64,000 nt of DNA from Clostridium sp. Marseille-Q2269 (lineage in GTDB: Bacteria > Bacillota > Clostridia > Clostridiales > Clostridiaceae), in NCBI RefSeq assembly GCF_943736985.1, contig NZ_CALSFS010000012.1, positions 1 to 64,000 on the forward strand. Reading direction: 5' to 3'. The notes under the pieces are model-generated. The model saw nothing but the letters and a program-made list of their open reading frames with translations, ran no database searches and was not told the DNA's origin. The position numbers were made by a program, and so were the translations under genes. Of this stretch, positions 33,521 to 42,272 are shown piece after piece. The first letter of the stretch is position 1, and each line of letters opens with the position of its first letter.

Positions 33521-33617
33521 GGGAGTAGATAGGTGCTGGTGTGCCTGCCGGTCTTCAAAACCGAGTTGTCGTGCTAAGACCACGATGGGTGGGTTCGATT
33601 CCCACATATTCCCGCCA
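33521..33617 (+). tRNA. selC: tRNA-Sec (anticodon TCA)
   Basis: 97 nt with encoded CCA. The acceptor GGGAGTA pairs with TATTCCC, then discriminator G and CCA. The anticodon TCA (33555-33557) sits in the loop of CCGGTCTTCAAAACCG. A long variable arm and a TTCGATT T-loop with an extended T stem are typical of selenocysteine tRNA. It follows selD-selA-selB, completing the pathway. The 3' end is the integration site of the island downstream. Confidence 0.96.
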
Positions 33618-33675: not shown

Positions 33676-33759
33676 ACTGTTTCCTTAAAAATAACTTAAA
33701 AGTTGTGTAGTAGTTGTGCAGTAGAAATTTAAAATAATTTATTTAGCTTATCAATAGCC

Positions 33760-34003
33760 TTATTTTTTTTCCTCTGGCATAACATGAGTATATATATTCA
33801 TAGTGGTTTTAATATCACTATGGCCCATTAATGTTTGAACTGTTTTTATAGGCACTCCAAGTTCAAATAATCTAGTGGCATATGTATGCCTTAAAGTATG
33901 AAATTTTTTATATGGTATTTTAGCATCTTTTAATATTTTGGTATATCGTTTAACTAAGTATCTAGTATCTAAATAATGACCAATTGGTCTTATGTCAATA
34001 TCT
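33760..34003 (-). pseudogene. Tyrosine integrase, C-terminal fragment
   Basis: About 80 residues remain, including the catalytic-domain motif [25 protein letters not shown], and the nucleophile Tyr in MNIYTHV. The catalytic Arg of box II, the His and the Tyr are present, but the N-terminal two thirds are missing. The fragment joins IS3 sequence at about 34004 (TGGACAC), so the gene was cut by an IS3-family insertion. It lies next to attL, as expected for the island's own integrase. Confidence 0.85.
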
Positions 34004-34472
34004 TGGACACAAAAAGTCAAACTTTTTTTATGCTACACTTCTAGCTAATAATTCACATTGATCTGTGGTCATGCAATTAATAGAAGAGTGTAGCCTTTTT
34101 CTGTTATACCATCCTTCAATATATTTAAAAATAGCTCTATTAGCTTCTTGGAAGGTACGATATGCATTTCTGTATATTTCTTCTTTTTTTATAGATGAAT
34201 GGAAAGATTCTATACAAGCATTGTCATAGGGACAACCTTTTTTACTAAATGATTCTGTAATATTAAACTTTTTACATAGCTCCTTTAAATCATTACTAGT
34301 GTATTGAGATCCTAAATCGCTATGGAATATTAGTTGCTTATTTTTATGAGGAGATTGGCTGAAATAAGCATTTTTCAAGGCTTTAACAACTAAATCATTA
34401 GTCATTCTTTTACCGAAAGCGTAGCCAATTATTTTTTTAGAATGTAAGTCAAGAACTGAAGCTAAATAGCAC
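34004..34472 (-). pseudogene. IS3-family transposase OrfB, C-terminal fragment
   Basis: The reading frame retains YLASVLDLHSKKIIGYA (a catalytic Asp), FHSDLGSQYTSNDL, and ACIESFHSSIKKEE with the catalytic Glu, ending at a TAA near 34028. OrfA and the N-terminal half of OrfB are absent. The 3' end of the element, TGGACACAAAAAGTC, lies at 34004 and interrupts the integrase. The other side ends against the terminator of the first non-coding cassette. Confidence 0.85.
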
Positions 34473-34752
34473 CAAAAAAAGATAGCTCCACTTAAGGAAC
34501 TACCTTTTTGTTTGGAAAGTATAAATTATAGTATCAATGATTGTATTTTAATTATGTTCAACTTAAAAATTATTTATTCAAGTATTTTAAGAGAAATATT
34601 TTTATTCTTGCAGAATGCTAACAGTATTAATATCATCTTACAATTTTCTTAGCCAATAAGGGAAGGGACTCAAAACGAGCCCCATTCACATGGAATTTGC
34701 TATGATATATATTATGCATAGCAGTGTAGTGTTTTGGGTTATTTTTATTATA
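34473..34752 (-). ncRNA. Candidate non-coding cassette, long type, copy 1
   Basis: Read on the minus strand, a -10-like TATAAT (plus-strand ATTATA, 34747-34752) stands in GGGTATAATAAA. The transcribed part contains AAATTCCATG, then GGGGCTC-GTTTT-GAGTCCC as a hairpin, and CTTCCCTTATT. It ends in a stem GGTAGTTCC/GGAGCTATC with a T7 tract at 34473. The same order and sequences recur in copies 2 and 3. G-U pairs in the stems of this copy favour the minus strand. No protein is encoded. Expression is inferred, not seen. Confidence 0.5.
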
Positions 34753-34930
34753 CCCAAAAATAAAAATTTTAACTATATAAAATTATTATTTAAGAAGGAA
34801 TGTTATTTATAATTATCTATTAACATAAGTTAAATATAAAATTAAATACAGAAAAAGGAATTTATTTAGAAGAATAGAATACTAAATATAAGCACCTTTC
34901 TAAACATTTTAAAAGTCCCTTTTCAAATAT

Positions 34931-35013
34931 AGAAAAGAAGTCCTATATTTATTTTAAGGACTTCTTTTTATGTGTAATTTTTAATTGTGTGCCTAAATCT
35001 ATTTTTTATTATA
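34931..35013 (-). ncRNA. Candidate non-coding cassette, short type, copy A
   Basis: The minus strand has TATAAT (plus 35008-35013), then AAAAAATAGATTTAGGCAC and about 70 nt ending in the stem AAAAGAAGTCCT/AGGACTTCTTTT (34933-34969). Three other short cassettes near 41.2-41.6 kb share the first 20 nt and the terminator type. Confidence 0.45.
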
Positions 35014-35062
35014 TCCAATATTGAACATAAGAATTAATAATATTATTATAGTATATTTTAGG

Positions 35063-35315
35063 AAAAAAGAGTCCTATTCAATAGAACTCTTCTTTTTTGG
35101 AAAATATAAATGTTTAGTTTATAGTAACTAATGATATATTAATTATGTCACATTTAAGAATTGTTTATTCAAGTATTGGAGAATTTATAGAAGTCTAAAA
35201 GTATAAATATTATTGTATCAACTTACTTATTAGGGGAAGGAGCTCGTTGGTGTGAGCCCCTCTACATGGAATTTTCTATACATACCAATGTATAAATTAA
35301 ATCATCTTTATTATA
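35063..35315 (-). ncRNA. Candidate non-coding cassette, long type, copy 2
   Basis: The minus strand has TATAAT (plus 35310-35315) in GGTTATAATAAAG. It then reads AGAAAATTCCATGTAGA and GGGGCTC-(8 nt)-GAGCTCC, and ends in the stem AAGAGTTCTATT/AATAGGACTCTT with a T-run at 35063. The hairpin stem differs in sequence from copies 1 and 3 but keeps pairing, with a G-U pair only on the minus strand. Confidence 0.5.
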
Positions 35316-35342
35316 ACCAACTATGATGATTTTAATTATATA

Positions 35343-36806
35343 ACTTTAGTTATGCAAAATAAAAATCTAAATTGGTAAAACTACCAAAAAATAAATATGG
35401 CATACTTTCTCTCACCGTGTTATATAAAAGTTACCCTAAAAATACACACACGGGAGGTAAGAAGTATGCCAAGTACTAATATTGTATCCATTAATAATGA
35501 ACTTTACAATTACTTAAATGATGTAAATTATGGAATGTCTAAGCCTCAATTTAATCATTTAACCAATATTGCCAATGGATTAATTAATTTACCTGGCACT
35601 AAAACTTTATCTGAAATTGCTAAAAATGTGTTGTCATCAAAAGATAAAAGTTGTATTTATAGATTTTTAAGCCATTCTAAATAGGACGATAGTCTTCTGA
35701 ACAACAATAGAATTAGCTATTTAAACTTTTTCCTTGAGCATAATATTAAACCTAAATCCGTAGGGTTTTTGATTATAGATGATACTGTAAATCCCAAGAA
35801 ATCAGCAAAGAAAATGCAAGGATTATCTTATAATTACTCTCATACAGAAGACAAAAATATTTGGTCACATTGTGTGGTTACTTCAAATTTTGTTGTAAAT
35901 GATAAATCTATTCCTTTACAATATAAACCTTACTATAAAAAGGAATTTTGCAAAGATTTAAATAAAAATTTTAAATCTAAGATTGATATTGCAAAAAATT
36001 TTATAACTTCTTTTAAAACTCCATCTAATTGTGAAAAAATGTATTGTCTTATGGATTCATGGTATACAAATAATAATTTAATAGAAGCATCTTTAGCAAA
36101 GGGCTACCACCTAATAGGAGCAATTAAATCTAACAGAAAAATATCTCCATTAGGAATTTCAATGCAGTTATCAAAATTTGAAAAATTCCTTAGTCCTAAC
36201 ACCTTAGACCTTGTTACAGTTGAAGGTAAGGACTATAGAGTATATACCTATGAAGGTAATGTTTCTAAATTCCCTTATGCTAAAATACTTATTTGCTATG
36301 AAGTCACCGATGATGGATTCAAGAACCCAGTATATTTGCTGTCTACCGACATCTTATTAAATGCAGAAACTATAATTAAATATTATTTCCACAGATGGAC
36401 TATAGAAACTTCATATAAATATTTAAAAAGCAATTTAGCTTTTGATAAATATAGAATGCGTAGCATTTTGTCTATAGAACGATATTTTCTTATAGTATTA
36501 TTAATCTATAATTTTTTAGAATTATTTAGAGTTAGTTCCAACCACGGAGATTTTAAGACTATAGGTGAAACTCAGAAATATCTAAACAGCCTGACGGCAA
36601 AAGCACTTGTGTGCTTTATATATGAAAAATCAAAACAGAATATTGAACTAAAAGATATTTTATCTGAGCTAAAAATCCCTTAGAGTTTTTAAAAATTTAT
36701 TATATAAAATTGAGCAAGTGTTTTCATATTATATGGATAATATATCATAATAAGTATAATATAATCTCAATAGGTAATTTAGCTTTTGAAATTGCCTAAC
36801 TAAAGT
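35343..36806 (+). mobile_element. IS701/IS4-like insertion sequence, defective
   Basis: Candidate terminal inverted repeats are 31 nt with 26 matches: ACTTTAGTTATGCAA at 35343 and the reverse complement of 36776-36806, ACTTTAGTTAGGCAA. The 1.46-kb length fits the family. The transposase inside carries a nonsense codon. A target duplication was not clear. Confidence 0.65.
35466..36683 (+). pseudogene. IS701/IS4-type DDE transposase with in-frame amber codon
   Basis: The frame starts at ATG 35466 after GGGAGGTAAGAAG and runs to 36683, but TAG at 35682-35684 interrupts it after FLSHSK. The next residues, DDSLLNNN, stay in the same frame, so a single change (perhaps TGG to TAG) explains it. Seen downstream are FLIIDDTVNPKKSAK (catalytic Asp), CLMDSWYTNNNLIEA (Asp) and YYFHRWTIETSYKYLK (Glu). 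Without suppression no full transposase is made. Confidence 0.85.
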
Positions 36807-37043
36807 AAATAAGTTTTTTGAAATTTGGATAATAGCATAATCTATTAAATCTTTTAAATAATCTATGTTTTTTTATAGAAGTGATTTTATATGACTATTA
36901 GCAATCATATTATAGTATATTCAGTATACATATTGTATAGCTATATTGAGATATTTTTTTATGGATAAATTTAACACGACTATTATTAAGATAAAATCAA
37001 ATAATATAATTATGCAAAAATTATATTAAATGGAGGTAATAAT

Positions 37044-37262
37044 ATGAGAAAACTTTCAGAAGTAGAAGTATTATCTTTAACATCATTACTAAAAATGGAA
37101 CAAGATGGATTAATTGTACAAAAAGCAATTAATACATTAATAACAGATGATAACTTAAGAAGACAAGGGGAAGCTAGTGCATTAGCATCAGAGGGTAGAA
37201 TAAAAGGATTGCAACAATTTATTAATGAAAATGAAATAATAACTCCAAGGGAGGTACAATAA
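37044..37262 (+). CDS. Small coat-associated-type protein (hypothetical)
   Basis: 72 aa, helical and acidic (LTSLLKMEQDGLIVQKAIN). It lies 1 nt before a CotF-like gene and resembles the short partner proteins that precede CotF-like genes in clostridia. A GGAGG site lies 7 nt before the ATG. The 36684-37043 gap before it holds the right end of the IS element and then AT-rich sequence in which I could not assign a sporulation promoter. A spore-coat role is inferred from the neighbours. Confidence 0.7.
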   Translation: MRKLSEVEVLSLTSLLKMEQDGLIVQKAINTLITDDNLRRQGEASALASEGRIKGLQQFINENEIITPREVQ

Positions 37263-37263
37263 A

Positions 37264-37569
37264 ATGGCAAAGATAATTGAAAACATGATTAAAAATAATA
37301 TTAATGTTAATGATGAAGTTATATCTTTAAATATGCTTTCTGCGGGAAAAGCTGCAGCTGATGCATATCTTAATGCCACATTAACAAGTAGTACTCCAGA
37401 ATTAAGATCCATATACTCTGCCAGTTTAAATCAAATAGTTGGAGGTCATAGTTCTCTTACAGAATTAGCTGTAAATGAAGGTTGGGCTAAACCTTATGAT
37501 TCATCTAAACAGCAATTAAGTGATACTTATAATGAATCAAGAAATGTAATTAATAAAATTGAACAATAG
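37264..37569 (+). CDS. Spore coat protein, CotF family
   Basis: 101 aa. The sequence fits the Coat_F domain: NDEVISLNMLSAGKAAADAY, then an SSTPELRSIYSASLNQIVGG stretch and KPYDSSKQQLSDTY. CotF-type proteins are small helical spore coat components, distantly ferritin-like. The start overlaps the end of the GGGAGG region of the previous gene, with a 1-nt gap, so the two are one operon. A terminator lies 120 nt downstream. Confidence 0.82.
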   Translation: MAKIIENMIKNNINVNDEVISLNMLSAGKAAADAYLNATLTSSTPELRSIYSASLNQIVGGHSSLTELAVNEGWAKPYDSSKQQLSDTYNESRNVINKIEQ

Positions 37570-37690
37570 TATAAATAAAAGCTTATTGAAAATTTAAAAA
37601 TATGTTACTTTTTATAAAATTTGAAGGTAAATTAGATTGAATAGACCCTTTCTTTCAATATTTTATTATTAAAGTAAAAATAAAAATATA

Positions 37691-37720
37691 AAAAAACATC
37701 TAAAAGATTAGATGTTTTTT
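37691..37720 (+). terminator. Rho-independent terminator after the CotF-like pair
   Basis: AAAAAACATCTAA pairs with TTAGATGTTTTTT around a 4-nt loop. The right arm supplies the T-run. Confidence 0.9.
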
Positions 37721-37788
37721 ATATTTGGAATAATTAGTACAATGATAGGAAATTATAACATGGAATATAAAATATGGAGGTGTTAATT

Positions 37789-38460
37789 TTGTTTGAACAT
37801 AAAAAACAATTACTACATGAAGTAAAAGTTGAAAGACCCAATCCACAATATGCTGTATTAATGCAAGAACAATTAGGAGGAGGTAATGGTGAACTAAAAG
37901 CAGCAATGCAATATATTTCTCAAAGCTTTAGGATAAAAGATCCTGAGATAAAAGATCTTTTTTTAGATATTGGTGCAGAAGAATTAAGTCATATGGAAAT
38001 GGTATCCCAAACAATAAATTTATTAAATGGTCATGATGTGAATAATGAAAAAGTTATTAATGGTGAAATTCAGACACATGTACAATGTGGACTATCACCT
38101 GTTCTAATTAATTCATCTGGAGCTCCATGGACAGCAGATTATGTAACTGTTACAGGGGATTTAGTTGCTGATTTATTATCTAATATAGCATCTGAACAGA
38201 GAGCAAAAGTTGTATATGAGTATTTGTATCGTCAAATTGAAGATAAAGAAGTAAGAGCAACAATTGATTTTTTACTTAATAGAGAGGAAGCTCATAATGC
38301 TTTATTTAGAGAAGCATTAAATAAAGTTCAACATTCTGGTTCAAATAAAGATTTTGGAGTTACGGAAGATTCTAAACTCTACTTTAATTTATCTAATCCA
38401 GGACCAGAGCATGAGGTACCAAATCCCACTCCTCCTTCATTTGAAAATCCAAGAAGATAA
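37789..38460 (+). CDS. Manganese catalase family protein, CotJC-like
   Basis: 223 aa. The ferritin-like di-manganese ligands are visible: Glu in EQLGGGNGELKAAMQY, E-x-x-H in GAEELSHMEM, Glu in ASEQRAKVVYEY, and REEAH in the last helix. It is similar in length and plan to CotJC, the spore coat catalase of clostridia and bacilli, and would remove hydrogen peroxide. An in-frame ATG at 37774 overlaps GGAGG, so TTG 37789, 8 nt from it, is chosen. Flanked by terminators, it forms its own unit between CotF-like and DUF2935 genes. Confidence 0.88.
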   Translation: MFEHKKQLLHEVKVERPNPQYAVLMQEQLGGGNGELKAAMQYISQSFRIKDPEIKDLFLDIGAEELSHMEMVSQTINLLNGHDVNNEKVINGEIQTHVQCGLSPVLINSSGAPWTADYVTVTGDLVADLLSNIASEQRAKVVYEYLYRQIEDKEVRATIDFLLNREEAHNALFREALNKVQHSGSNKDFGVTEDSKLYFNLSNPGPEHEVPNPTPPSFENPRR

Positions 38461-38521
38461 TTAATATAACAATAAATAATTTTAATGTAAAAAAGTTATA
38501 GAAATATTTATTTATCCAAAT

Positions 38522-38562
38522 AAAAGGAATGAATCTTATACACTATAATATTCATTCCTTTT
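38522..38562 (+). terminator. Rho-independent terminator after the catalase gene
   Basis: AAAAGGAATGAAT pairs perfectly with ATTCATTCCTTTT around a 15-nt loop. Confidence 0.85.
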
Positions 38563-38665
38563 AGTTTATACTTAATTTTTGATATTATAATTTTATGGTA
38601 ACGTAATTTTCATTATAAACATATTATATAAAGTAGTATAAATCAATATATTTTGGAGGATAGCA

Positions 38666-39475
38666 TTGAAACTTAATAATATTAAAGAAATAACCTTATT
38701 TGAACATCATTTCTGGCTACAAATTTTAGGAGATCATTCTAGGTTTATTTTAAACTCACTTTCATCAAAAGAAGTAGAATTCATAGAAAGAGCAAACAAA
38801 TTTAAAAATTTATTCGATAACCTATTAAAAAAATCTAAACAAAAATTATCACAAGAAGAACTTATTATTTTAAATAATCATGCTTATGATGCAGCAATGA
38901 GAATTAGAGAATTTAAGTTAAGTATAATTAATAGACAGATTACTGATAAAATTATCATTTCATTACCTCCTACTTTTATAAATCATATGGTTAATGAGGT
39001 AAGTGAATATATATGCATATTAACTGAACTAATGAGAGGAAATATATATCCTGCAGGAGATATTTATCTTCATCTTTTATGGCTTCCTGATGGATCAGGT
39101 CATGCATCTAATATATCCAGTAGCCTTGATATGACAGAAAAAAAATTAATTGAAAAGAGTAAAGAATATTCTAAAGAATTTGATGAATTATACTTAAGAA
39201 CTATAGAATATAATGGTTATACAAGAATAGGTATTTGTAATTTCCCTGCACTTGATAAACTTAATAGCGATGTAGATAAATCAATGAGTTGTTTTAAAGA
39301 ATTTTTGAATGAATTAAAAAAAGGGATTATAGAAAATAAAATACTTGCAACACTTGTACCATTAGTGCCAGATCATATGTTTAGAGAAGAGTGTTATTAT
39401 TTAACTAAACTTTCAATGGTTTCAAATATAGAGAAACCTGAATGTGATCCTACAAAACCAAGGATAGAGTATTAG
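38666..39475 (+). CDS. DUF2935 domain protein
   Basis: 269 aa, two repeats of a helical ferritin-like fold typical of DUF2935. Metal-ligand-like residues are seen in LFEHHFWLQILGDHSRFI and in VPDHMFREECYYL. Such proteins are often found with spore coat genes in clostridia; the activity is unknown. TTG start 6 nt after GGAGG. Its stop codon TAG (39473-39475) uses the first base of an IS5 element inserted exactly there. Before insertion the codon would have been TAA, so the protein is unchanged. Confidence 0.85.
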   Translation: MKLNNIKEITLFEHHFWLQILGDHSRFILNSLSSKEVEFIERANKFKNLFDNLLKKSKQKLSQEELIILNNHAYDAAMRIREFKLSIINRQITDKIIISLPPTFINHMVNEVSEYICILTELMRGNIYPAGDIYLHLLWLPDGSGHASNISSSLDMTEKKLIEKSKEYSKEFDELYLRTIEYNGYTRIGICNFPALDKLNSDVDKSMSCFKEFLNELKKGIIENKILATLVPLVPDHMFREECYYLTKLSMVSNIEKPECDPTKPRIEY

Positions 39476-40352
39476 GGTGTGTCTGAAAACTAACCAGTGC
39501 AAAAGACTTAAATTTTAGCTATAATAATATAAAAAACTATGAGGTTAAAACAATGACACAAAAACGCTACGAAATATCAGATGAACAATGGAATCAAATA
39601 AAAAACTTATTTCCCGTTGCAAAGACAGGAAGACCACCCAAAGATAATAGAATTATGTTCAATGCCATACTATGGATTGCAAAAAGCGGTGCTGCATGGC
39701 GTGATTTACCTGAACGCTTTGGGTCATGGAAAACAGTATATAGTCGTTTTTGTAAGTGGCGTGATGACGGTACTTTAGTAGTAATTTTTAAAGAGCTAAC
39801 CTCAGAAGCAGATTATGAAAATTTAAGTATCGATTCAACATGCATTAAAGCCCACCAACATAGTGCAGGTGCTAAAAAGGGGCTGTAAACAACGAAACGA
39901 AACAACATATTGGATTAAGCCACGGAGGACATACGACAAAAATTCATGCAGTTGTGGATGCCCTTGGCAATCCGGTATACTTCCAATTGTCATCTGGTAA
40001 TTTACATGACAGTACACAAGCCATAGATATCCTTTCAAACATTGATATACAAAGTAGTAATATTTTAGCTGATAAAGCATATGGCACAAATGAAATTAGA
40101 GAATATATAACGTCACAGGGAGCCTCATATACTATTCCACCAAAATCTAATTCAAAGAATCCTTGGCCTTGTGATTGGTGGATATATAAGGAGGGTCATC
40201 TAGTTGAATGCTTTTTTAATAAAGTGAAGCATTTTAGAAGAATTGCTACTAGATATGATAAGCTTTCTTATTCTTTTCTTGCATTTGTTTATATTTCTGC
40301 CATTTTTGTTTTATCTAAATAAGCTCTTGATATATTGTTTTCAGACACGCCC
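39475..40352 (+). mobile_element. IS5-family insertion sequence (IS427-like), 878 bp
   Basis: Terminal inverted repeats are GGGTGTGTCTGAAAAC on the left and, in reverse complement, GGGCGTGTCTGAAAAC on the right (15 of 16 identical). The element is flanked by TA on both sides (39473-39474 and 40353-40354), consistent with a 2-bp target duplication. One frameshifted transposase gene fills it. It appears complete and recent. Confidence 0.85.
39553..40322 (+). CDS. IS5-family transposase (orfA/orfB joined by -1 frameshift)
   Basis: OrfA (39553-39888) carries the DUF4096-type N-terminus: YEISDEQWNQIKNLFP, GAAWRDLPERFGSW, and the first Asp in LSIDSTCIKAHQ. At AAAAAGG (39874-39880) a -1 slip enters orfB, which continues KGAVNNETKQHIGLS and then HAVVDALGNPVYF, LADKAYGTNEIREY (second Asp), and the Glu of HLVECFFNKVKHFRRIATRYDK, ending at 40322. 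This slip is the usual expression mode of the IS427 group, so the gene is probably functional. Confidence 0.85.
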
Positions 40353-40374
40353 TAATAAACATATCTAAAGTATA

Positions 40375-40514
40375 TTCAATTTAAAAAAAATATTTATCCA
40401 AATATTAAAAAAGGAATATTACTATTTTAAAAGAATATTAGATATAACGGTTTCTCAAGAATGACCTCTCAAAGAAAAAAGAGCTATACTTTATCAAAGG
40501 GAGGTCTTTTAATG
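40375..40514 (-). other. Partial cassette: conserved upstream element and hairpin beside the IS5
   Basis: On the minus strand a GACCTCCC/GAGAGGTC hairpin (40466-40514) is followed by TTATATCTAATATTCT and ATATTCCTTTT. These two blocks stand upstream of the -10 boxes in the intact cassettes. A -10-like TATACT follows, then the IS5 right end. It looks like a cassette interrupted by the IS, or one whose transcript now enters it. The stretch 40515-40811 has another copy of the upstream element (plus-strand AAGAAGGAGTATTAGAATATTA at about 40750-40771) and otherwise nothing I can name. Confidence 0.35.
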
Positions 40515-40811
40515 TTAAAAAATATAAGTATATACTTATATTTCAAAGGAGTATATTTCAAGTGTAGCAAAATCTATAAATTATCTATTTAAATACTTAG
40601 AAAATATTTTAACATTATAGGATATTAAAAGAATAAATATTTTATTATGAACACTTGATTTCGATTTTAAAATTTGCAAATGATTTATAATCATTTTTAG
40701 ATGTAAATTATATAGTACATTGGTAATTATGTTTATTTGTTTAGTATTTAAGAAGGAGTATTAGAATATTACACATAAGGAACATCTATATTTAGGCATA
40801 AATTTCATCAT

Positions 40812-41068
40812 AAAAAATAGTTCTATTTATTTAAAATAGAACTATTTTTTATGAAAGCGTGTAGGTATCGAGTTGTAGTACTAATATTAGTTATTAAATA
40901 TTTAAAAAAATATTATAAATTTTATAGAAGGCCAACAGCATAAATATCATCACAATAATCTTATCTTTTAATAAGGGAAGGGGCTGGAGATAAATAAGCT
41001 CCATTTAAATGAAATTTTCTATGCATTATACATATCACAATGTACTAATTAAATCTAATACTAGTATA
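40812..41068 (-). ncRNA. Candidate non-coding cassette, long type, copy 3
   Basis: The minus strand has a -10-like TATACT (plus 41063-41068) in GGATATACTAG. It then reads AGAAAATTTCATTTAAA, a GGAGCT-(11 nt)-AGCCCC hairpin, CTTCCCTTATT and GATGATATTTATGCTGTTGG. It ends in a perfect stem AAAAAATAGTTCTATTT/AAATAGAACTATTTTTT (40812-40850). The order of blocks is the same as in copies 1 and 2, with compensating changes in the hairpin. Confidence 0.5.
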
Positions 41069-41180
41069 TCCGAATATAATAATTTTAATCATAAAAAATT
41101 AAAAATTTTAAAAGGATTTTTTGTATTTAAAGAATATTAAATATAATGTTCTTTAATAGTTTTTCACTTTTTTTAAAACA

Positions 41181-41268
41181 TAAAAAAGAGTCTACATTTA
41201 TTTTTATGGGCTCTTTTGGTACTGTATCTATAATTATCTTATTAGGTGTCTGAGTCTATTTCATTATA
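41181..41268 (-). ncRNA. Candidate non-coding cassette, short type, copy B
   Basis: The minus strand has GGGTATAATG (-10 box at plus 41263-41268), then AAATAGACTCAGACACC and about 75 nt to the hairpin at 41183-41217 with a T-run. TTAAAATTATTTTATTT lies upstream of the -10 box, as in the other copies. Confidence 0.45.
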
Positions 41269-41368
41269 CCCAAATAAAATAATTTTAAATATGAAAAGGA
41301 ATATAGTTACAAATATAGAATATTAGACATAAGACTTTCTAGAGTATAATTATAGGCCACTTTACACC

Positions 41369-41452
41369 AAAAGAGTTCTATTATTAATAGGGCTCTTTTA
41401 TTGTATGTGTATATTTATTTTGTTTGGGTGTCTGAATCTATTTTTTAGTATA
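41369..41452 (-). ncRNA. Candidate non-coding cassette, short type, copy C
   Basis: The minus strand has TATACT (plus 41447-41452), then AAAAAATAGATTCAGACACC and a stem AAAAGAGCCCTATTA/TAATAGAACTCTTTT (41369-41399). The leader is nearly identical to copies A and B. Its stem has G-U pairs on the plus strand, the reverse of most copies. Confidence 0.45.
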
Positions 41453-41520
41453 TACAAATAAAATAAATTTCAAATATAGAATACTATTATATACTTCCTA
41501 TAGTTGTTTATTCTTGTAAA

Positions 41521-41602
41521 TAAAAAGAGCCTAAGATATAAATCCTAGACTCTTTTTATATTATATTTACTGAGTGGGGGTTCCAAATCTATATTTATTA
41601 TA
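41521..41602 (-). ncRNA. Candidate non-coding cassette, short type, copy D
   Basis: The minus strand has TATAAT (plus 41597-41602), then AAATATAGATTTGGAACCCCC and a stem AAAAAGAGTCTAGGA/TCTTAGGCTCTTTTT (41522-41557). The two non-Watson-Crick positions are G-U only on the minus strand. Confidence 0.45.
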
Positions 41603-41702
41603 TACATAATAAGTAATTTTATACATAAGCAAAGAAATATATTTCCATTTATAGAATGTTAATATTAGGAAATGGTTTTTTATAAATTAACTATGATTAA
41701 TT

Positions 41703-41846
41703 ATGAACGAAGTAAATTTAATTTTATCGAAAGATATAAGTAATTTAGAAGAGAAGTGCTCAGAAGTATTAGCTGATATAGTTGCAGAAATGTTAACAAC
41801 TGAAGAGCTTGAGTATTTAATATCGCAACTTGAAAATAAAAAATAA
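41703..41846 (+). CDS. Very small hypothetical protein (47 aa)
   Basis: Begins MNEVNLILSKDISNLEEK and ends YLISQLENKK. It is acidic, helical and Glu/Leu-rich, with a single Cys19. No family is recognised and no strong ribosome-binding site is seen. It is followed 24 nt later by another small frame, so the two could form a pair. The frame is short, so chance is possible. Confidence 0.4.
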   Translation: MNEVNLILSKDISNLEEKCSEVLADIVAEMLTTEELEYLISQLENKK

Positions 41847-41869: not shown

Positions 41870-42001
41870 ATGAATATAAAAAACATAAAACTAAAGCTAA
41901 TAAAGGGAAAGAACACTGCAGCAATAGTAACAGAAGCACTTTTAAAATTATATGAAAATAATGCTGAAAAAGTATTAAATCTAAATGAAGATAAAAAGTA
42001 G
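41870..42001 (+). CDS. Very small hypothetical protein (43 aa)
   Basis: Begins MNIKNIKLKLIKGKNTAAI and ends VLNLNEDKK. It has a basic N-terminal half and a helical C-terminal half. AGGGG lies 7-8 nt before the ATG and a terminator follows 14 nt after the stop, which supports real expression. No family recognised. Small acidic/basic partners next to each other can be toxin-antitoxin pairs, but nothing specific supports that here. Confidence 0.45.
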   Translation: MNIKNIKLKLIKGKNTAAIVTEALLKLYENNAEKVLNLNEDKK

Positions 42002-42240: not shown

Positions 42241-42272
42241 GGGTGGGTTCGATTCCCACATATTCCTGCCAA
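42241..42272 (+). repeat. Right attachment repeat (attR)
   Basis: A 32-nt copy of the tRNA-Sec 3' end including TTCGATTCCCACATATTCC and GCCAA, with one change from the copy at 33587. The rest of the tRNA is absent, so this is not a gene. The sequence from 42048 to 42240 on the island side shows nothing else. Confidence 0.85.

Follow-up and report, generated by a model that had tools for sequence, protein, structure and literature searches.

Multicopy families of small RNAs (sRNAs) are known from several bacteria, Listeria and streptococci included. The LhrC1-5 RNAs of Listeria are multicopy and LisRK-dependent, and UCCC-type motifs are presented as seeds pairing with Shine-Dalgarno sequences in low-GC bacteria (PMC4132741). 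The CiaR-dependent csRNAs of streptococci form groups of two to six sibling RNAs, some of them in tandem (PMC4211561); they share a common direct-repeat activator site and contain stretches complementary to ribosome-binding sites, and CiaRH is described as not found outside streptococci (PMC8186281). In C. difficile, type I toxin-antitoxin systems have been met on mobile elements (PMC7699646). We report here an array of repeated units, putatively encoding sRNAs, next to the tRNA-Sec gene (selC) in a stretch of 64,000 nucleotides from Clostridium sp. Marseille-Q2269 (contig NZ_CALSFS010000012.1, positions 1 to 64,000), hereafter called the window. No such Clostridium array is described in the literature searched, composed mostly of titles and beginnings of abstracts with few subscription journals.

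The array itself is real and statistically solid. It comprises seven units on the minus strand, three long (A, B and C) and four short (S1 to S4), distributed in two clusters and placed head to tail in a single orientation, with B-S1-A and then S4-S3-S2-C as the order of transcription. Each unit consists of a promoter-like block, a putative transcribed part and a terminator-like stem. With its start set some 7 nt past TATAAT and its end at that of the stem, the transcribed part measures 241-266 nt in the three long units and 70-76 nt in the four short ones, in agreement with the sizes of about 250 and 75 nt given by an initial annotation made from the sequence alone. This annotation had proposed at least seven related units in two classes; direct reading and within-class similarity confirm the seven and add a degenerate fourth long copy, D. 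Long unit A lies at 34475..34772, with TTAAAAT from 34772, TATAAT at 34752-34747, a predicted RNA start near 34740 and the stem near 34475-34508; B is found at 35060..35335 (TATAAT 35315-35310) and C at 40816..41088 (TATACT 41068-41063). The short units are S1 at 34931..35030 (TATAAT 35013-35008), S2 at 41181..41288 (TATAAT 41268-41263), S3 at 41367..41472 (TATACT 41452-41447) and S4 at 41521..41625 (TATAAT 41602-41597). Copy D (40430..40790, minus strand), downstream of C, resembles A, B and C with z of 4.5, 3.5 and 2.7, respectively; out of 300 shuffles, none came as close to A or B, and two did to C. Neither the promoter block of the array nor the C-rich motif of the long units is recognisable in it, and it holds a sigma-70-like TAAACA-17-TATAAT at 40735-40707.

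The RNA parts and the promoter regions of the units were compared pairwise against dinucleotide shuffles (300 per pair). Within classes, all nine RNA pairs stood at 0/300 shuffles, with z of 12.4-14.5 for the three long pairs and 4.8-9.6 for the six short pairs. Between classes, two of the 12 RNA pairs stood out (C-S3, 1/300; B-S3, 4/300) and the other ten were at 30/300 or more. For the promoter regions, 10 of the 12 between-class pairs were reached by 11/300 shuffles at most, the two others being B-S3 and B-S4. When the units are registered at TATAAT, the between-class identity in bins of 10 nt from -60 to +39 is 0.28, 0.27, 0.37, 0.44, 0.73, 0.56, 0.82, 0.37, 0.25 and 0.28; it is thus high in the bins -20 to -11, -10 to -1 and 0 to 9, weaker from -30 to -21, and 0.25-0.37 elsewhere. 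The register being set on TATA[AC]T, the value of the 0-9 bin is partly true by construction, and sets taken from other TATA[AC]T sites served as control. Among 5000 such sets drawn from the 403 other sites of the window, the observed identity was reached by none in the -20 and -10 bins, by 5 in the 0 bin, by 46 in the -30 bin and by at least 637 in the other six. The strongest indication of promoters on the minus strand comes from this footprint between -20 and -1; they are favoured because the shared part has the size of a promoter and ends just after the -10 box.

Moreover, a position weight matrix built with one unit left out ranks the omitted units 5 to 15 among the ~128,000 positions of the window, other units being among those ranked higher and S1 being the weakest. 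The pattern TTAAAAT-N8-14-GGNTATAMT occurs four times in the window, always in the array, for 0.08 expected; its strict form (TTAAAAT, 10 nt, GGnTATA(A/C)T) fits A, B, C and S2, and not S1, S3 and S4. In the long units, conservation is highest in the promoter block, with 74-77% identity in the three pairs as against 36-71% for the other segments. The promoter-like block common to the units, already noticed in the initial annotation, is therefore supported by both the leave-one-out ranks and the in-register footprint. A further 29-bp box, TATTCTWT-N11-WATTCCTTTT, is matched exactly at three places of the window, each of them in the array and on the minus strand: between S1 and A (34853..34881), directly upstream of the S2 promoter (41294..41322), and downstream of copy D (40409..40437), where it perhaps belonged to a lost unit. 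Matches with up to two mismatches included, five are found in the window for 0.76 expected, the two additional ones, each with two mismatches, lying elsewhere; the spacing of 11 was chosen after seeing the sequence, and a spacer of 12 bases, used at first, gave no clear enrichment (14 matches for 7.9 expected). Weaker versions were seen by eye before S4 and C. We read this upstream box as a putative activator site.

The RNA bodies of the two classes are composed differently. In the long ones, a G+C-rich hairpin is followed by CCTTCCC(C)TT, and the three matches to YCCTTCCCYT present in the window fall one per long unit (A 34658..34667, B 35232-35241, C 40973-40982, minus strand), for 0.59 expected, three or more being reached in 3 of 100 shuffles. 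MAFFT misaligns the C-rich region of B, which was read by eye. The full-length long RNAs of A and B fold better than shuffles (z -3.44 and -3.66) and that of C does not (z -1.20). The short RNAs display, before the terminator-like stem, a conserved AUAGAUUCAGACACCC-like 5' end which is largely unpaired in folding models, with a mean unpaired probability of 0.58-0.99. The mean pairwise identity of these ends reaches 0.74 over 16 nt for a background of 0.34. Deprived of their stem, the short bodies fold no better than shuffles.

The explanation that we favour, and to which we give about an even chance of being correct, is a two-class array of sibling sRNAs served by one promoter module and transcribed from the minus strand of a prophage remnant at selC. 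According to this model, a prophage-derived island would carry tandemly duplicated sRNA genes, and a single promoter module (TTAAAAT then GGnTATAAT, with the upstream box in several places) would have been duplicated together with two unrelated RNA bodies, a long one in which the hairpin precedes a C-rich CCUUCCCyU stretch and a short one with a largely unpaired 5' end. Acting in trans, these RNAs would pair with ribosome-binding sites through their C-rich stretches or their conserved single-stranded parts, in the manner of the multicopy LhrC RNAs and csRNAs.

Several observations weigh against this model, beginning with the promoters. S1 is an outlier, as its promoter region is not above chance relative to the three other short units (42-133/300 shuffles), and the three short-short promoter pairs out of six that fail to stand out are those including it. 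Moreover, none of the seven boxes is preceded at a distance of 16-18 nt by a -35 element with at least 4/6 matches, and a sigma-70 scan listed none of them; transcription without a canonical -35 would therefore depend on another sigma factor or on an activator. According to PMC7438776, a strong -35 is usually missing from the extended -10 promoters of C. difficile, which can be hard to distinguish from SigB promoters, and activator-controlled genes may lack this element. The presence of the upstream box together with the missing canonical -35 suggests an activator-dependent and coordinated transcription. The RNA bodies raise further difficulties. The C-rich motif is only partly unpaired in the models (mean 0.40-0.49), and without their terminator stem the long bodies hardly surpass shuffles in folding (z -1.40, -2.06 and 0.57); because the fold excess shrinks once this stem is removed, no conserved fold is claimed beyond the stems. 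Against the 5' regions of 57 genes of the window, the pairing of the C-rich seed is weaker than that of shuffled seeds (-6.74 vs -7.67, sd 0.26), that of the S3 seed about equal (-6.34 vs -6.16) and that of the S4 seed slightly stronger (-7.21 vs -6.71). Target prediction among the same 57 gene starts was not significant: the C-rich seed was tried in three versions, whose best single targets were attained in 20, 14 and 48 of 400 shuffles.

The lack of a convincing homologue of the array among the genomes, viral contigs, plasmids and phages searched, and consequently of between-species conservation, also counts on this side. Searches were conducted with a sequence-only model of the long core (R1) and a model of the short unit (R2), for which the units used to build them score 104-122 and 57-68 bits by construction. 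R1 matched six of 206 genomes of the family at E<=0.01 (best 20.0 bits), one of 391 genomes of the class, which may overlap the former, at E<=0.001 (21.4 bits), and four genomes reached through loci (best 15.1 bits); R2 matched 10 of the 206 at E<=0.01 (best 20.6 bits). Nineteen of 22 weak-match loci checked for frames, a set that leaves out four R1 matches reached through loci (L008, L011, L012 and L013), fall mostly inside a stop-to-stop frame of at least 60 aa, the shortest of which may be due to chance, and the parts read of the three others (L073, L074 and L076) contain no repeated unit. Among 43 viral-contig loci, none was matched by R2 at E<=0.1 and one by R1 (11.9 bits); pattern scans of viral contigs retrieved the 16-base short-unit pattern in 29 contigs and the long-unit pattern in none. 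With blastn, unit B matched one plasmid record and the second cluster four phage records, always over pieces of 40-75 bases. The HrcA of the window shares at most 61% identity with any of 225 members of the order (220 of them matched) and its SelB 66% with the best of five loci found, that of Clostridium sp. CX1, and no close relative is thus available for comparison. Within the window, a 62-nt stretch at 36860-36921 with 71% identity to the S1 promoter region is possibly another degenerate short unit, which R2 does not report at E<=0.1. The initial annotation knew of no RNA family with this layout and proposed an Rfam scan: over the window, tRNA-Sec is the only family found at gathering thresholds, and permissive scans of the array stay below thresholds as well. 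The best permissive match in the array, SpF10_sRNA (26.6 bits vs a threshold of 60), lies on the plus strand over an upstream box and was taken as chance; ncr1015 on S4 (26.1 vs 60) and RefA9 on S3 (20.8 vs 49) fit the stems plus AT-rich sequence.

The host of the window is a Clostridium-like genome, with selA, selB and selC all inside the window. The last 31 bases of tRNA-Sec (33521-33617, plus strand), which constitute the left attachment-site repeat (33587..33617, plus strand), recur with one mismatch at 42241..42271 on the same strand, where the right repeat marks the end of the island. A truncated tyrosine integrase, reduced to a C-terminal remnant of 86 aa, is located at 33760..34020 on the minus strand (Phage_integrase, E 9.5e-17; phrog_1). 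It has relatives at E<=1e-25 in 18 of 206 genomes of the family; the frames of the four best measure 392-403 aa, the two best (L121 and L122, 80 and 78% identity), with intact frames of 392 aa beside selC, adjoin tRNA-Sec and selB/selA, and the third best adjoins tRNA-Arg. A diverged integrase piece (39% identity) also follows tRNA-Sec in L001, and selC therefore looks like a recurrent attachment site. At the loci of these relatives, R1 and R2 remain unmatched except for one R1 match of 11.8 bits (L123). In C. tepidiprofundi (L004), six post-island genes of the window have their relatives in unchanged order from 1.3 kb downstream of selC onwards, and no integrase match was obtained at this locus. 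Considering the integrase relatives beside selC and this gene order without integrase, the island appears to have been inserted at selC; together with the flanking tRNA-Sec repeat, these data uphold the location in a selC island put forward initially and the assignment to a selC-integrated prophage or island.

Besides the integrase remnant, the cargo between the repeats includes a transposase fragment, two more transposase regions, a manganese catalase, a DUF2935 protein and a Coat_F-domain protein. The transposase fragment, which has integrase-core (rve) domains and which we take to be of IS3 type, adjoins the stem of unit A (34028..34405, minus strand). A DDE transposase region at 35397-36683 is split into two frames, 35397-35684 (without Pfam match) and 35769-36683, and this element may thus be inactive. 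Between the two clusters, a small protein gene, the Coat_F protein and the manganese-catalase gene, possibly related to the spore coat, occupy 37044-38460; the first two have PHROG family matches and 79-80% identity to a viral-contig locus (L030). Two small open reading frames, 41703-41846 (47 aa) and 41870-42001 (43 aa), separate the array from the right attachment repeat; neither has a Pfam match at E<=1, and weak PHROG matches were obtained for the former only.

Other explanations have to be weighed against an array of minus-strand sibling sRNAs. A possible one, clearly short of an even chance, considers the units as decaying relics, that is, tandem duplicates of a phage intergenic promoter and terminator which once preceded genes and are now neutral or subject to a leaky, functionless transcription. 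The shortening of the integrase to 86 aa, the transposase genes or fragments within the island, the absence of a recognisable promoter block in copy D, the imperfect S2 and S3 stems on the minus strand and the lack of target signal all fit such a decay, whereas the conservation of the promoter block and of the short 5' ends amid a drifting remainder, as well as the five stems out of seven that pair without mismatch on the minus strand, do not. The selection for transcription suggested by the initial annotation accordingly stays plausible without being proved: it agrees with the promoter block being the best conserved part of the long units, but a copy that has decayed and stems of mixed strand preference would also fit a partial decay. 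This mixed preference, which bears on our model as well, gives some substance to the improbable view that functional transcripts come from the plus strand, or from both, and that the TATAAT block does not serve as a promoter on the minus strand. Either strand allows the stems to form; those of S2 and S3, mismatched on the minus strand, are stronger on the plus strand (-10.8 and -13.6 kcal/mol) than on the minus (-4.9 and -9.0 kcal/mol), S1 is slightly in favour of plus and C shows no difference, the inner hairpin of C is favoured on plus, and the only stem accepted by a consensus terminator scan is that of S3, on plus. Conversely, the stems of A, B and S4 are clearly in favour of minus, the inner hairpin of A and that of B favour it too, and, on the minus strand, the part common to both classes stops just past TATAAT. 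The structural evidence being mixed, it is the promoter footprint which tips the balance to the minus strand; as for the minus-strand terminator stems claimed initially, stems are indeed present in all units, while those of S2 and S3 depart from the claim by pairing better on the opposite strand.

Frames of 15-46 aa occur on both strands of the units, and one of them, in the long units, reads MILILLAFCK in A, IIFILLDFYK in B and MIFMLLAFYK in C. In one 30-nt stretch of this frame, eight of the ten variable sites fall on third positions, which is reached by 4 of 2000 permutations of the alignment blocks in a test run after the frame had been noticed. The long units could on this basis encode a hydrophobic microprotein of about 18-20 residues regulated by the short RNAs, in a tandem type I toxin-antitoxin-like array for which the C. 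difficile systems cited above offer a precedent on mobile elements. We hold this to be very unlikely, given that the frame has no start codon in B and, by direct reading, no Shine-Dalgarno sequence before A or C, that four unit peptides, two of them from this frame, have no Pfam match, and that none of the 12 short-long duplexes without stems is clearly beyond shuffles, the lowest being 5/100 (S4 with A). The same slight credit is given to its wider version, in which one promoter module would drive two paired RNA classes, the long one with the microprotein frame and the short one controlling it or acting in trans; if true, this would amount to a type I toxin-antitoxin-like RNA system made of several units, with a layout of which we know no earlier description. 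Hardly credible, finally, is that the units are the extremities of, or repeats inside, an insertion sequence or a miniature inverted-repeat transposable element. Transposase genes or fragments do border the clusters and short direct repeats (D14, D16 and D20) touch transposase genes, at a length expected by chance, but the units follow one another head to tail with a single orientation, 10 of 12 pairs show no likeness between the two RNA classes beyond the promoter, and the search for inverted repeats returned the stems and scattered AT-rich pairs, with no shared terminal inverted repeat framing the units.

If sibling sRNAs are indeed transcribed from it, this Clostridium array, with its seven units, its decayed eighth, its two unrelated RNA bodies on one promoter module and its mobile setting, would show that sRNA families can arise by duplication of a promoter cassette and that a regulatory array can remain from a dying prophage. 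The locus, which is compact, would also offer seven natural promoter variants for comparison.

The anatomy of sibling or multicopy sRNAs is recognised in the related units, the shared promoter-like block and the stems, but not in a canonical -35, and the S2 and S3 stems are weak on the minus strand. Sib/Ibs is another system to which the array can be compared: with Sib/Ibs, OrzO/ZorO and the type I loci of C. difficile, it would have in common short RNA genes that are repeated or carried by mobile elements and that may include a tiny hydrophobic frame. It differs from type I toxin-antitoxin systems by the missing start in B, the missing Shine-Dalgarno sequence and the absence of significant short-long pairing, and the OrzO-P model scores 18.9 bits on the array, on the plus strand, for a threshold of 60. 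Rfam presumably holds a model of LhrC, which appeared neither in the gathering scan of the window nor in the permissive scans of the array. Two unrelated RNA classes, a prophage-remnant setting and no Rfam match distinguish the array from LhrC; the LhrC-type C-rich seed is represented by CCTTCCC in the three long units, but it is only partly unpaired in the models. The CiaR repeat TTTAAG-N5-TTTAAG is not enriched in the window with up to two mismatches (45 vs 48.6 expected), and none of these 45 is on the minus strand within the two clusters; an exact copy lies at 33684-33700 on the minus strand, between selC and the integrase remnant and outside both clusters. The array nevertheless resembles LhrC1-5 by its several homologous copies, its promoters putatively needing an upstream region and its C-rich UCCC motif, which in LhrC is thought to pair with Shine-Dalgarno sequences (PMC4132741), and the csRNAs, which share a direct-repeat activator site (PMC8186281), by its putative sibling RNAs in tandem. 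On the best reading, and although it would be a member of neither family, the array appears closest in anatomy to LhrC and the csRNAs.

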